DNA from: a virus
Length of the DNA stretch: 63,242 nt
IMG/VR virus record: IMGVR_UViG_3300034283_002437
Span: 1 to 63,242 of that record
Reading direction: 5' to 3' (one strand)
In this document: positions 1,105 to 43,916 of the stretch, piece after piece
Layout of the letters: the number at the start of each line of letters is the position of its first letter
Position numbering within the stretch: position 1 is the stretch's first letter
Position numbers and translations under genes: made by a program
Notes under the pieces: generated by a model
The model's database searches: none
Seen by the model: the letters and a program-made list of their open reading frames with translations, nothing else
Told to the model about the DNA's origin: nothing

Positions 1105-1134
1105 ATCTGACCCTCAACAGAGTCATTATACACA
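1105..1134 (-). repeat. 30-bp promoter/leader element, copy 1 (inverted)
   Basis: Read on the minus strand, these 30 bases are identical to 31104-31133 on the plus strand. In both places the element contains the -10 hexamer TATAAT and the predicted first transcribed bases (GTTGAGGGTC). The flanks differ, apart from the TTGACA -35 that both loci place 17 nt upstream. On the plus strand, 1109-1117 and 1138-1146 also form a 9-bp inverted repeat (GACCCTCAA/TTGAGGGTC). Confidence 0.85.
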
Positions 1135-1153
1135 TATTTGAGGGTCTTGTCAA
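1125..1153 (-). promoter_or_regulatory. Consensus promoter pointing antisense into 684-1082
   Basis: On the minus strand TTGACA (1153-1148), a 17-nt spacer and TATAAT (1130-1125) form a perfect sigma-70-type promoter. No minus-strand gene follows it. A transcript would start near 1118 and run antisense to the hypothetical gene at 684-1082 and possibly into uvsW. Confidence 0.75.
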
Positions 1154-1159
1154 GGGGTA

Positions 1160-1188
1160 TTGCAAAAGCTCTGATTTTGTGTTACAAT
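1160..1188 (+). promoter_or_regulatory. Promoter for gp55
   Basis: TTGCAA and TACAAT are separated by 17 nt, and the -10 ends 26 bases before the gp55 start. It is divergent from the minus-strand promoter a few bases upstream. Confidence 0.65.
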
Positions 1189-7018: not shown

Positions 7019-8128
7019 ATGACTCAACTGACTGACCAACTTATCGAAAATCTTTCTGCTGTCTATGGCGAAACTGTTACTCGCCAACAACTGATTGAAT
7101 ATGCTGCAAGCTCCAATACTTCACTTGCGACTATTTGTAAGGCTCTAGAGACTCATAAATCTGGTCGTGGAGTTTGGAATCTGACTGCTGTTGAAACTCT
7201 TGAAAAAACTTTTAATTCTATGTCTGCAACACCTGCAACTCCAGTAGTTAGCTTTATTCCTCAGAAAGATAAGAACTATGTTTCTTTCGGTAACTTCACT
7301 GATGTGAAGCGGATTGTAAAGTCTGGTATGTTCTACCCTGTTTTTATTACTGGTCTGTCTGGTAATGGTAAAACTGTGAGTGTTGAGCAAGCATGTGCCC
7401 AGCTAAAGCGTGAACTGATTCGGGTTAACGTGACTGTCGAGACCGATGAGGATGACCTTCTGGGTGGCTTCCGCCTGGTAGATGGTGAGACTGTATGGCA
7501 CGACGGTCCTGTGGTAAATGCCCTCAAGCGTGGTGCAGTTCTACTACTTGACGAGATTGACCTTGCCTCTAACAAAATCATGTGCCTCCAGTCTGTGCTG
7601 GAAGGTAAGGGTGTTTTCCTCAAGAAAATCAATCAGTATGTCAAGCCTGCTGCAGGGTTCAATGTGATTGCTACTGCAAACACCAAAGGTAAAGGTTCTG
7701 ATGATGGTCGCTTCATTGGCACCAATGTGATGAACGAAGCTTTCCTTGAGCGTTTCCCAATCACCTTTGAGCAGGCATATCCTTCGATGTCTACTGAGAA
7801 AAAAATTCTCATGAACCTGATGAAGACTTTTGAGACTGTGGATGAGGAGTTTGTAGATAAGCTAATTGTCTGGGCAGATACCATTCGTAAGACCTTCTAT
7901 GATGGTGGTGTAGACGAAATCATTACCACTCGTCGTCTGGTTCACATTGTTCAGTCATTCGCCATCTTCAAAAATCGCAAGAAGGCAATCAACGTTTGCA
8001 TCAACCGATTTGATGATGACACCAAGAGTTCTTTCCTAGACCTCTACAAGAACATTGATGCTTCTGTTACAGATATTACTGAAGAAGCAACAGTAGAAAC
8101 TAATGAAGAGGTTGACACCGTTTTCTAA
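7019..8128 (+). CDS. cobS: CobS/MoxR-like AAA+ ATPase
   Basis: This 369-residue AAA+ protein has Walker A GLSGNGKT (112-119), a DEDDLLGGF segment (144-151), Walker B LLLDEID (175-181), a sensor-like ATANTKGKG near 215, and FLERFP near 245, all typical of the CobS/MoxR branch. CobS is the ATPase of aerobic cobaltochelatase, and cyanophages commonly carry this homologue. Direct cobalamin synthesis by the phage is doubtful because no CobN homologue is visible here. The adjacent VWA protein is the likely partner. Codon use around 7430-7640 is more GC-rich than neighbouring genes. Confidence 0.85.
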   Translation: MTQLTDQLIENLSAVYGETVTRQQLIEYAASSNTSLATICKALETHKSGRGVWNLTAVETLEKTFNSMSATPATPVVSFIPQKDKNYVSFGNFTDVKRIVKSGMFYPVFITGLSGNGKTVSVEQACAQLKRELIRVNVTVETDEDDLLGGFRLVDGETVWHDGPVVNALKRGAVLLLDEIDLASNKIMCLQSVLEGKGVFLKKINQYVKPAAGFNVIATANTKGKGSDDGRFIGTNVMNEAFLERFPITFEQAYPSMSTEKKILMNLMKTFETVDEEFVDKLIVWADTIRKTFYDGGVDEIITTRRLVHIVQSFAIFKNRKKAINVCINRFDDDTKSSFLDLYKNIDASVTDITEEATVETNEEVDTVF

Positions 8129-8140
8129 ATCGTGTATAAT
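8112..8140 (+). promoter_or_regulatory. Perfect-consensus promoter inside the cobS end
   Basis: TTGACA, a 17-nt spacer and TATAAT. The promoter spans the cobS stop codon. The predicted start (about 8147) falls inside the 5' arm of the terminator hairpin at 8143-8159, so transcripts made here should not form the full terminator. Confidence 0.85.
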
Positions 8141-8142
8141 AC

Positions 8143-8166
8143 GGGGAGTTCTTCTCCCCATTTTTT
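8143..8166 (+). terminator. Rho-independent terminator after cobS
   Basis: GGGGAG (8143-8148), loop TTCTT, CTCCCC (8154-8159), A, then six T. It overlaps the start site of the next promoter. Confidence 0.85.
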
Positions 8167-28757: not shown

Positions 28758-29924
28758 ATGCAATTCATTAAAAATACAAACAGTGAAATTAAAGGAATGA
28801 CAGTATTTAATAGTAATCATGTAGACATTAAAAAGCAATCAATGTTTTTTGGTGCTCCACTTGGTATTCAAAGATATGATACTTATAAGTACCCTATCTT
28901 TGACAAGCTAACTCAACAGCAACTGGGATACTTCTGGAGACCTGAAGAGGTCTCCCTCCAGAAGGACCGTGCAGATTATGCTACTCTTCGCCCAGAACAA
29001 AAACATATTTTTACTTCTAATTTGAAGTATCAGATTATGCTTGACTCTGTTCAGGGTCGTGGTCCTGGCATGGCATTTTCTCCATATTGTTCTCTTCCCG
29101 AATTAGAGGCTTGTATGAAAATTTGGGAAACTATGGAAATGATTCATAGTCGCTCATATACTTACATTATTAAAAATGTGTATCCAGATGTATCTGAAGT
29201 ATTTGATACAATTCTAGATGATGAAAAAATTCTAGAAAGAGCAAAGAGTGTTACTGAAGCATATGATGAATTTATTGAGTCTGCTCATCAGTGGGATTCT
29301 GGAAATCTCTGGAGTTTAGGAACTTCACATTCAACTGCTAGTATCGAACTTAAAGAACTTAAGAGAAAACTATATCGTGCAGTAATGAATGTAAATATCC
29401 TTGAGGGTATTCGGTTCTATGTTTCGTTTGCTTGCTCTTTTGCTTTTGGAGAACTCAAAATAATGGAGGGTTCTGCAAAGATTATTTCTCTAATTGCTAG
29501 AGATGAATCTCAACATCTTGTAATTACTCAGAACATCATTAAGAATTGGAAGAATGGTGATGATGCTCAAATGGTAGAAATTATGCAGGAAGAAGAAGAG
29601 AATGTATATGAAATGTTCAAGAAAGCAGTAAATGAAGAAAAGGCATGGGCAGAATATCTGTTTAAAGATGGTTCTATGATTGGATTAAATTCAAAGTTAC
29701 TTGCTTCTTATGTGGAATATATTGCTAATCGTAGAATGAAAGCAATTGGACTTAAGCCTGCGTTTGATATTTCTATGTCAAATAATCCTCTTCCTTGGAC
29801 TGAGCATTGGCTAAATTCTAAGATGATGCAAAACGCACCACAAGAAACAGAAATTGAAAGCTATGTAATTGGTGGAATTAAACAAGATGTGAATAAAGAT
29901 ATGTTCTCTGGATTTAAACTATAA
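28758..29924 (+). CDS. nrdB: Ribonucleotide reductase class I, small subunit NrdB
   Basis: This 388-residue ferritin-like protein has the iron-ligand pattern ELEACMKIWETMEMIHSR (E-x6-E-x2-H-like) and a later ISLIARDESQH segment with the second E-x2-H. It carries the tyrosyl radical or metal centre that activates NrdA. A ribosome-binding site (ACGGAG) precedes the ATG. Confidence 0.95.
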   Translation: MQFIKNTNSEIKGMTVFNSNHVDIKKQSMFFGAPLGIQRYDTYKYPIFDKLTQQQLGYFWRPEEVSLQKDRADYATLRPEQKHIFTSNLKYQIMLDSVQGRGPGMAFSPYCSLPELEACMKIWETMEMIHSRSYTYIIKNVYPDVSEVFDTILDDEKILERAKSVTEAYDEFIESAHQWDSGNLWSLGTSHSTASIELKELKRKLYRAVMNVNILEGIRFYVSFACSFAFGELKIMEGSAKIISLIARDESQHLVITQNIIKNWKNGDDAQMVEIMQEEEENVYEMFKKAVNEEKAWAEYLFKDGSMIGLNSKLLASYVEYIANRRMKAIGLKPAFDISMSNNPLPWTEHWLNSKMMQNAPQETEIESYVIGGIKQDVNKDMFSGFKL

Positions 29925-30965: not shown

Positions 30966-31084
30966 GTCTCAAATTTTCAGTAACCAGGCAGAAAAACCAT
31001 CATGTTTTGACCATTAAACCCAGTTGTAGGGGAACTAGGTTGGTTCTCTTCTTAAACTGCAAAAAACAGCATAAAACTTGGGAC

Positions 31085-31113
31085 TTGACAACCCCCTGGA
31101 ATCTGTGTATAAT
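31085..31113 (+). promoter_or_regulatory. Perfect-consensus promoter
   Basis: TTGACA, a 17-nt spacer and TATAAT. The sequence from 31104 to 31133 is the second copy of the 30-bp element at 1105-1134. Confidence 0.85.
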
Positions 31114-31133
31114 GACTCTGTTGAGGGTCAGAT
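31104..31133 (+). repeat. 30-bp promoter/leader element, copy 2
   Basis: Identical over 30 bases to the reverse complement of 1105-1134. It covers the -10 box and the predicted start of the transcript. Confidence 0.85.
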
Positions 31134-31162
31134 AAATATTTTAAGTTAAATATAAACATATA

Positions 31163-31504
31163 ATGAAGCCTCAAAGTGCTAAAGCTAAGGGGAGAAATCT
31201 CCAGAAGTGGATGAGAGAAAAGCTCATAGAAGAATTAAACATACATCCTGAAGATATTGAATCACGCTCTATGGGTGCTGGTGGTGAAGATTTGATTATG
31301 GCAAGAGCTGCTAGAGAAAAATTCCCATTGAGTATTGAATGTAAGAATGTTGAAAAACTCAATGTCTGGGAAGCATATGAACAAGCAAAAGCAAATGCAG
31401 GTAATTATGAACCTATTGTGGTAATGAAAAAGAATCATAAAAAACCATTAGTAGTAATAGACGCAGAGTACTTTATTAAACTATTCGGAGGTAAAGATGG
31501 CTAG
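31163..31504 (+). CDS. Putative PD-(D/E)xK nuclease
   Basis: This 113-residue protein has GAGGEDLIM, then LSIECKN, giving a plausible D-(x)n-E-x-K catalytic core (D about 37, E55, K57), and a basic N-terminus (AKAKGRNLQKWMREKL). This resembles small Holliday-junction or restriction-like nucleases of phages. It has its own strong promoter but no clear Shine-Dalgarno sequence. It overlaps the C39-like gene by eight bases. Confidence 0.72.
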   Translation: MKPQSAKAKGRNLQKWMREKLIEELNIHPEDIESRSMGAGGEDLIMARAAREKFPLSIECKNVEKLNVWEAYEQAKANAGNYEPIVVMKKNHKKPLVVIDAEYFIKLFGGKDG

Positions 31505-33825: not shown

Positions 33826-34106
33826 TTGGAGAGCGACGGTTCTCCAAAGAATGTGACAGAACAATCCTTGTGGTTACTCACGGGATAATGTAATAGGTTA
33901 GGGGTGGTGCCCGCTGTATCGTTGAGAAATCAAAGGTATAGAACTTCCGACCAAGAAGAATCTAGGTATTAGGAAATACGGTTGTCAGTGTAACCTTCCT
34001 GATTGTGGGTATGACAGATTCCCACCATTCACCCAAAACATTCATCATCAGAGTTTGCCAGTGTGTAGATGATGTCTCAGCGATAACTGGAATTGGGGAG
34101 AATAAT
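33826..34106 (+). ncRNA. Structured non-coding region, possible small RNA
   Basis: No credible gene lies between tRNA-Ile and tRNA-Glu. Several hairpins can be drawn: TTGGAGA/TCTCCAA (33826-33847) directly after the tRNA, AGGAA[..GGTT/AACC]TTCCT (33971-34000), GTGGG/CCCAC (34005-34025) and CATCATC/GATGATG (34043-34074). No known RNA family is recognised. It may be processed together with the tRNAs. Confidence 0.45.
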
Positions 34107-34819: not shown

Positions 34820-34872
34820 ATAAAATCAATACTTCTCAAGCCTATCAACGATGCTCAAACAGAGAAGTCACT

Positions 34873-37317: not shown

Positions 37318-37492
37318 GTCGGTTGGAAACCCAACCTAACTCATTCTGGACTGGGGTTCGACTCCCCACACCTCCATTCACGGGGGTGAACTGGTATCGA
37401 CGGGGTGGGGGATGCGAGAACAAATCTCAACAACATCGTAAAATTTGAGAGGACTTCTGTTGCTGTATAGTAACGAACTCTGACTCACAATC
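37318..37492 (+). ncRNA. ssrA: Circularly permuted two-piece tmRNA (cyanobacterial type)
   Basis: The upstream piece is the acceptor RNA: a hairpin GGTTGG-AAAC-CCAACC (37321-37336), a T-arm TGGGG-TTCGACT-CCCCA (37352-37368), the 3' acceptor strand CACCTCC (37369-37375) and discriminator A (37376). Only five bases later the coding RNA begins with the 5' acceptor strand GGGGGTG (37382-37388). The two strands pair fully, including the alanine identity pair G3-U70. The D-like segment CTGGTATCGACGGGG follows, as in standard tmRNA. The tag frame 37429-37470 encodes NNIVKFERTSVAV then two stops, close to cyanobacterial tags that begin A-NNIV. CCA is not encoded. The RNA should rescue stalled ribosomes with host SmpB after processing into two pieces. 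Confidence 0.9.
37429..37470 (+). other. tmRNA tag-peptide reading frame
   Basis: AAC AAC ATC GTA opens the frame, which encodes 13 residues (NNIVKFERTSVAV) and ends TAG TAA. With the alanine from the charged tmRNA, the tag is 14 residues. It resembles host tags at the N-terminal side but ends in VAV rather than the usual VAA or IAA. Confidence 0.85.
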
Positions 37493-38159: not shown

Positions 38160-38202
38160 CTTAAAAACTTGCCCTGGTGGAGTCAAACATGACCCAATTT
38201 AG
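38146..38202 (+). CDS. Possible 18-residue peptide in repeat copy B
   Basis: An ATG frame reads MSRNDLKTCPGGVKHDPI and ends in TAG. The equivalent frame in copy A reads SLGVDFKLCPGREQPP, so a CPG-containing peptide is partly shared. Whether peptide or RNA is conserved is open. Confidence 0.3.
   Translation: MSRNDLKTCPGGVKHDPI
38148..38188 (+). repeat. Degenerate repeat, copy B
   Basis: GTC-TCGGAAT-GAC, TTAAAAAC, TTGCCCTGGTGGAGTC. Relative to copy A there are compensating one-base gaps. Confidence 0.6.
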
Positions 38203-38207
38203 TCCTC

Positions 38208-38248
38208 GTCGGATTGGACATTAAATATGCCGACTGGTGCGGATGAGG
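38208..38248 (+). repeat. Degenerate repeat, copy C
   Basis: GTC-GGATTG-GAC, ATTAAATATGCCGACTGGTGCGG. Part of it (AAATATGCCGACTGG) also resembles the start of the tmRNA acceptor piece (AAATATGTCGGTTGG at 37312-37326). Confidence 0.5.
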
Positions 38249-38310
38249 AGTTTTTTAACTCCGCCGAGTTTCCAATTTTCTCGTAAACAAAATTGGTGGC
38301 GAGCCTGCAA
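38249..38310 (+). other. Long imperfect hairpin before the tRNA-like gene
   Basis: CCAATTTT (38271-38278) pairs with AAAATTGG (38288-38295), extended by CGCC/GGCG on the outside. No gene is seen in this stretch beyond a 19-codon frame starting at 38227. Confidence 0.5.
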
Positions 38311-43829: not shown

Positions 43830-43916
43830 GGAGGGTCAATCCGATTGGCGACGGAACCTGTCTTGAAAACAGTTGAGGTGTTAAAGCCCTTGGGCGTTCG
43901 ACTCGCCCACCCTCCG
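43830..43916 (+). tRNA. tRNA-Ser (TGA)
   Basis: Acceptor GGAGGGT/ACCCTCC, anticodon loop CTTGAAA with TGA, a long variable arm, and T-loop TTCGACT. It lies apart from the main tRNA region and directly follows a terminator, so its own promoter is not obvious. Confidence 0.93.

Follow-up and report, generated by a model that had tools for sequence, protein, structure and literature searches.

A palindrome at the predicted start of a few promoters in T4-like cyanophages, one of them antisense and divergent from gp55: possible core of a small phage regulon

We propose that a 30-bp repeat in a phage contig forms the central part of a small regulon of marine T4-like phages, whose strong promoters of the host-sigma70 type carry an operator for a phage factor at their start region. 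Judging from the sequences, we give this proposal roughly an even chance of being right. Its constant member would be a promoter that diverges from that of gp55, the gene for the late-transcription sigma factor, and fires antisense into an Sm-like gene and uvsW. The window analysed is positions 1-63,242 of the IMG/VR record IMGVR_UViG_3300034283_002437, which, by its relatives, is a T4-like cyanophage of the Kyanoviridae.

The repeat and its promoters

The initial annotation reported 30 identical base pairs at two loci in opposite orientation, and the identity is indeed exact. Positions 1105-1134 (minus strand) and 31104-31133 (plus strand) both read TGTGTATAATGACTCTGTTGAGGGTCAGAT, with 30 of 30 bases matched and the flanking base mismatched at both ends, inside a wider inverted pair (1105-1154 and 31084-31133) that is 90% identical over 50 nt. 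We agree that chance can be dismissed as the cause, since about 2e-8 inverted exact 30-mers are expected from composition and the 20-mer core had 0 matches in 100 shuffles. The same core has no further match in the contig at up to 3 mismatches.

Both copies stand behind a perfect TTGACA-17-TATAAT. The TTGACA had been placed 17 nt upstream, which is correct at both sites when the distance is counted, more precisely, to TATAAT. An early promoter of the sigma70 type should have TTGACA and TATAAT-like boxes, 16-18 nt apart, in non-coding DNA, and this is what we find. The site-1 promoter (1125-1153, minus strand) agrees with the consensus at 12 of 12 positions and consists of TTGACA at 1153-1148, a 17-nt spacer and TATAAT at 1130-1125; that of site 2 (31085-31113, plus strand) has TTGACA at 31085-31090 and TATAAT at 31108-31113. 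The predicted +1 is 1118 (minus) and 31120 (plus), and is taken, from the spacing and a near-invariant TG, as the 7th base after the -10 box, a near-invariant G in relatives. The start-site element, -6 to +13, occupies 1106-1124 on the minus strand, with the palindrome GACTCT-GTTG-AGGGTC at 1124-1109, and is identical to 31114-31132 on the plus strand, where the palindrome is at 31114-31129.

Site 1 lies between the Sm-like gene and gp55, behind uvsW. The helicase gene is cut by the contig start, leaving its C-terminal part (40-687, plus; Helicase_C); the Sm-like gene (684-1082, plus; PHROG 471, Pfam Sm_like under the cut-off) and gp55 (1215-1685, plus; PHROG 234, E 4e-68) follow. The order uvsY-uvsW-Sm-like-gp55 is also found in S-CREM1, P-HM2 and Sf-FP1. 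That the site-1 promoter is aimed antisense into the gene at 684 is borne out by its orientation in the sequence, which is away from gp55 and into the Sm-like gene and uvsW. The predicted promoter of gp55 itself, TTGCAA-17-TACAAT at 1160-1188 (plus), is divergent from it, with 6 bp separating the two -35 boxes. Site 2 is in sense orientation upstream of a gene for a PDDEXK/RusA-like endonuclease (31163-31504, plus), and in about 27 contigs that share the gene order a conserved counterpart of its promoter precedes the homologue of this gene. Directly 3' of the site-2 element is a late-promoter-like GATAAATA (31131-31138, plus), in agreement with the late promoter published for cyanophages, NATAAATA (PMC2984593).

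The element is not a general property of early promoters; we rejected this idea because other TTGACA-17-TANNAT sites in the contig, in S-PM2 and in a relative contig are without it. Nor does an Rfam family account for its identity, as none of the 14 Rfam matches in the contig falls at 1105-1154 or 31084-31133. The Rfam matches in a tRNA-rich region are a manA RNA (33827-34035, 109 bits) and a wcaG RNA (38200-38310, 52 bits); further ones are an abiF RNA (34832-34868), a permuted tmRNA (37342-37412) and a borderline selenocysteine-tRNA (43830-43915).

Three other places in the contig may be recorded here. The spacer of site 1 contains, at 1138-1147, an extra inverted copy of half the element (GACCCTCAA, minus strand), forming a perfect inverted repeat that spans the -10 box and is absent at site 2. 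At 29043-29061 (plus), within an nrdB-like gene and promoterless, GACTCTGTTCAGGGTCGTG has 4 mismatches to the element, a count within the expectation of the reversed-pattern control. At 8112-8159 a perfect TTGACA-17-TATAAT is followed, 2 nt past the -10 box, by a strong intrinsic-terminator hairpin (GGGGAGTTCTTCTCCCC and a T-run) where the gene 7019-8128 ends; contig G002 has a related layout at 95602 (minus).

Conservation of the antisense promoter before gp55

Lack of conservation of the element in relatives had been named in advance as part of what would refute the observation; it is in fact conserved there. Of the viral contigs that contain a relative of gp55 we examined 79, and every one has the same minus-strand promoter, with an exact TTGACA. 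Among 71 distinct versions of the gp55-side element the spacer is 17 nt in 70, and -1/+1 is TG in 65. S-CREM1, S-PM2, Syn9, P-HM2, P-SSM2, P-SSM4, S-SM2, S-RSM4 and others have the antisense promoter, and in the Pelagibacter (SAR11) phage HTVC008M the region before gp55 is laid out alike, with the palindrome AGGCATGTGCCT in the same position. The predicted +1 G of the gp55-side element is at about 84,439 in S-PM2, and the starts expected in Syn9 are at about 123,698 (minus) and 52,776 (plus).

The gp55 promoter is opposite in direction, and its -35 box is mostly 2-9 bp from the antisense one, or else an extended -10 goes with an overlapping -35; most distinct loci have this back-to-back or overlapping arrangement. 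Because the -35 regions abut or overlap, two RNA polymerases are unlikely to bind at once, as far as geometry can tell. At the 3' end of the Sm-like gene codon conservation is not in excess, and the body of the predicted antisense RNA is therefore without detectable constraint, which would agree with an effect exerted by the act of transcription.

A palindrome with compensatory changes

Straight after the -10 box comes an imperfect palindrome (-6 to +9 around the +1 G), mostly AACTCT-N3/4-AGGGTT with a loop of 3-4 nt, whose arms change in compensation. A palindromic site at the promoter is what one would expect of an operator, and it is found here, imperfect in some classes, several of which have mismatches in mid-palindrome (AACACT/AGGGTT, AACCAT/AGGGTT). 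In 17 versions with a loop of 3 nt, 98% of the stem cells are paired versus 23-61% with the partners slid by 1-3 columns, and both arms have changed, as in AACCG/CGGTT, AACTG/CAGTT and AACAG/CTGTT. The stem tolerates G.U and hardly A.C (58 versus 3 cells, a count that includes related sequences). The covariance model describes the loop-3 elements only, loop-4 elements being misplaced by the ungapped MAFFT alignment.

Further copies of the element

It had been suggested that the rest of the genome and related phages be searched. Of 15 complete cyanophage genomes, 13 have the element 1-2 times more, behind TTGACA-type promoters. The covariance model search gives 1-3 strong copies per complete cyanophage genome; in T4, the negative control for this type of search, there is no copy (best match E 0.67). 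A model-free search with the gp55-side 18-mer recovered most of the other copies, again at TTGACA-type promoters, so that the search is not biased by the covariance model. In most genomes the extra copies ranked first or nearly first among non-self matches, and lower in S-CREM1, P-SSM4 and S-RSM4. The second copy of ACG2014e was missed by the 18-mer and supplied by the model; the third of S-H35, with a weak model score, was recovered by the 18-mer. BLASTN of the site regions returned mostly chance matches, plus the first useful cyanophage ones. P-HM2, P-SSM2 and HTVC008M have the gp55 copy only (a second was sought in HTVC008M and none was found), hence the proposed regulon is not universal.

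In a near-identical relative of our contig, IMGVR_UViG_3300044630_004416, a third, diverged copy lies about 50 kb beyond the point where our window ends on the left. The third copy of contig G002 is back to back with a small-gene promoter and antisense to the preceding gene, a layout like that at gp55. What follows copies 2 and 3 is not the same gene in every phage (the PDDEXK nuclease and other small genes, mostly of no known function), for which reason we rejected a single conserved downstream gene or an autoregulator. IMGVR_UViG_3300044630_004416 has, at 81.8-82.5 kb (minus), several small-gene promoters whose predicted transcripts start with GTTCA-N4-TGAAC-like hairpins (GTTCACTTCTGAACC, GTTCAATTCTGAACC, GTTCACACATTGAACC), which constitute another family of shared 5' ends.

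One to three copies per genome with no fixed gene downstream are also what one would see if the elements marked R-loop origins of the T4 type, with the shared start motif bound by a phage-specific initiator or transcription factor. The promoter would then be followed by an A+T-rich unwinding region, and its transcript would prime leading-strand synthesis. We consider this unlikely, while taking it seriously. The leaders, +14 to +63, are A+T-rich, with a G+C of 0.27 for the gp55-side copy and 0.33 for copies 2 and 3, versus 0.40 at other TTGACA-17-TAnnnT sites and in the genomes (Wilcoxon 2e-4 and 5e-4), the control promoter-like sites including chance matches in coding DNA. The transcript predicted on the gp55 side is not an mRNA, and its body is unconstrained. 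MotA acts at T4 oriF and oriG. The element adjoins uvsW, and in T4 UvsW unwinds origin R-loops and oriF overlaps the uvsY promoter (PMC3016281). On the other hand, there is no G+C-skew switch at the element sites, ordinary small genes follow most copies 2 and 3, and T4 oriF and oriG have little mutual homology, R-loop formation requiring no specific sequence (PMC3016281).

Concerted change within genomes

The argument for a regulon comes chiefly from the way the copies of one genome resemble each other. S-H35 has AACACTGTCAGGGTTGAT twice, S-T4 CTGGCTTGTCCAGGATGA twice, S-RIM2 AACCATGT three times, S-PM2 AACTCTGTCNNGGGTTCATGAGA twice and our contig GACTCTGTTGAGGGTCAGAT twice. Identity at -6 to -1 is 0.94 within genomes versus 0.71 between them (18 genomes, R1 matches with E <=0.002; 0 of 20000 permutations), and the effect is absent from the control region +25 to +49. 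With one genome per class the figure is 3-4 of 40320 permutations; the genomes compared are related, and this class-level test addresses kinship in part. Taken by position, the excess reaches from about -10 to +13. The length of the palindrome, or half-site spacing, is matched as well, 0.74 within versus 0.31 between (4 of 20000). The threshold left out weak extra matches in P-SSM4, P-HM2, G003 and G015, and the third S-H35 copy, found later, is outside the test. There are exceptions: the nuclease-gene copies of G005 and G012 depart from the other copies of their genomes at -3/-2, and in S-CREM1 and G002 the half-site spacing differs between copies. The same site at several promoters, changing together between lineages, is the behaviour of an operator, and it is seen here apart from the three single-copy phages.

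A shared 5' leader and a common regulator or RNA had been supposed initially. The regulator is strengthened by the concerted change. The leader is not the main part of what is shared, as the match includes the untranscribed -6 to -1 and reaches about -10.

Could the likeness within genomes be the functionless result of recent duplication or gene conversion? T4-like phages recombine heavily, which counts for such a view, as do the identical 30 bp in our contig. Nevertheless, class after class the likeness ends near -10 and +13 while spacer and leader differ, and random conversion is an unlikely cause because it would not end at the same limits each time. Long shared tracts around the copies are absent in the 13-18 genomes examined. 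In our opinion this explanation is highly improbable.

The copies are probably read by a trans-acting factor, and probably one encoded by the phage, because the elements of S-PM2, S-T4 and S-RIM2 differ (AACTCT, CTGGCT and AACCAT, respectively) although Synechococcus WH7803 is the recorded host of all three. A cyanobacterial host transcription factor would have a precedent, in that cyanophage promoters exploit the host regulator PhoB (PMC10976474). Yet three elements in three phages of one host, and the same architecture with another palindrome in a SAR11 phage, are so hard to reconcile with a host factor that we assign it a very slight probability.

Recognition could concern RNA rather than DNA. 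The element would then act as a 5'-terminal hairpin or leader that one or two mRNAs have in common with the antisense RNA, and its reader would be an sRNA, an RNase or an RNA-binding protein of the phage, for which the neighbouring Sm-like protein might qualify. The covarying stem, in which G.U pairs are frequent and A.C pairs very few, the loops of 3-4 nt and the inclusion of +1 to +13 in the concerted region would all agree with this. Still, a start at the near-invariant G, 7 nt past the -10 box, leaves the 5' arm (-6 to -1) untranscribed though it is best matched; half-site spacing is matched within genomes, several classes have internal mismatches, and there is no constraint deeper into the antisense RNA. 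The RNA reading thus appears improbable to us, and DNA recognition is favoured because the untranscribed bases are the best matched and the spacing is matched too.

A candidate reader

When distances between proteins were compared with distances between elements, DUF6433 (PF20025, beside rnh) ranked highest among 46 core families (partial r 0.63, family-wise 20/1000; 13 genomes, core distance controlled, the signal being weaker once the most divergent genomes were dropped). Its predicted structure (mean pLDDT 78; four other structure models had far lower scores) is similar to that of the DNA-binding domain in T4 DNA ligase (TM 0.66/0.71, E 0.011). In S-PM2 the gene, at 140953-141387 (L394:1501-1932), adjoins rnh and encodes a predicted stand-alone ligase-DBD fold. 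Pfam and PHROGs give no function for DUF6433, and we found no paper on it. As the cognate factor it is a weak candidate, a lead and not a conclusion. A fuller picture, in which a fast-evolving phage DNA-binding factor, possibly DUF6433, reads a lineage-specific start-site palindrome at 1-3 promoters and the antisense promoter couples the gp55 switch to R-loop origin transcription, is a long shot.

How the regulon might work

The operator would extend from -10 to +13 as an imperfect palindrome with its centre near +2, and would be bound by the putative phage-encoded factor; each lineage would have its own version and half-site spacing, held constant at 1-3 promoters per genome. With the antisense -35 box abutting or overlapping that of gp55, RNA polymerase would probably sit on one promoter at a time. 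Early in infection the antisense promoter would be on, restraining the gp55 promoter and directing transcription in the opposite sense into the genes before gp55. As the factor accumulates, it would bind over the start site and turn off the antisense promoter together with the other one or two marked promoters, whereby gp55 and rightward transcription would be released. T4 makes UvsW late (PMC3016281), hence an early block of the Sm-like gene and uvsW would make sense.

Relation to known systems and implications

Close parallels are the operators of lambdoid and TP901-1-type repressors, which also have a palindrome over the start, a lineage-specific sequence at few promoters and divergent promoters at a switch gene. 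Here, however, the phages are lytic and T4-like, without a known repressor of such kind; the switch gene is a late sigma factor, one of the two promoters is predicted to yield antisense RNA only, and the binding protein is putative. T4 middle promoters (MotA box, AsiA/MotA) likewise join a sigma70-type -10 box to an element that is specific to the phage and recognised by one of its factors, control genes between early and late, and are used at oriF and oriG, whereas the present element is at -10 to +13 instead of -30 and full TTGACA boxes are present. Cyanomyoviruses are reported to be without motA and asiA (PMC2984593). The R-loop origins oriF (uvsY) and oriG share with our sites a promoter followed by an A+T-rich region, the uvsY-uvsW neighbourhood and a low number per genome, but the T4 origins have little sequence in common, while our sites have a shared element and no skew switch. 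CfrI of S-PM2, in the psbA region, is also an antisense RNA of a T4-like cyanophage; it belongs to another locus and was demonstrated experimentally (PMC2984593, PMC5931967), whereas ours is predicted.

The conserved antisense promoter, locked to that of gp55 and bearing a phage-specific site that a few other promoters share, could serve as bait for the missing regulator, and the element gives a precise position to inspect in start-site maps, whether already made or still to come. The T4-like cyanophages count among the most abundant marine viruses and reportedly lack the middle-mode regulators of T4. A review describes how their early and middle genes are transcribed as a question yet to be resolved (PMC2984593). 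The element could help to explain how genes are timed in marine T4-like phages that do not have the known regulators of T4.
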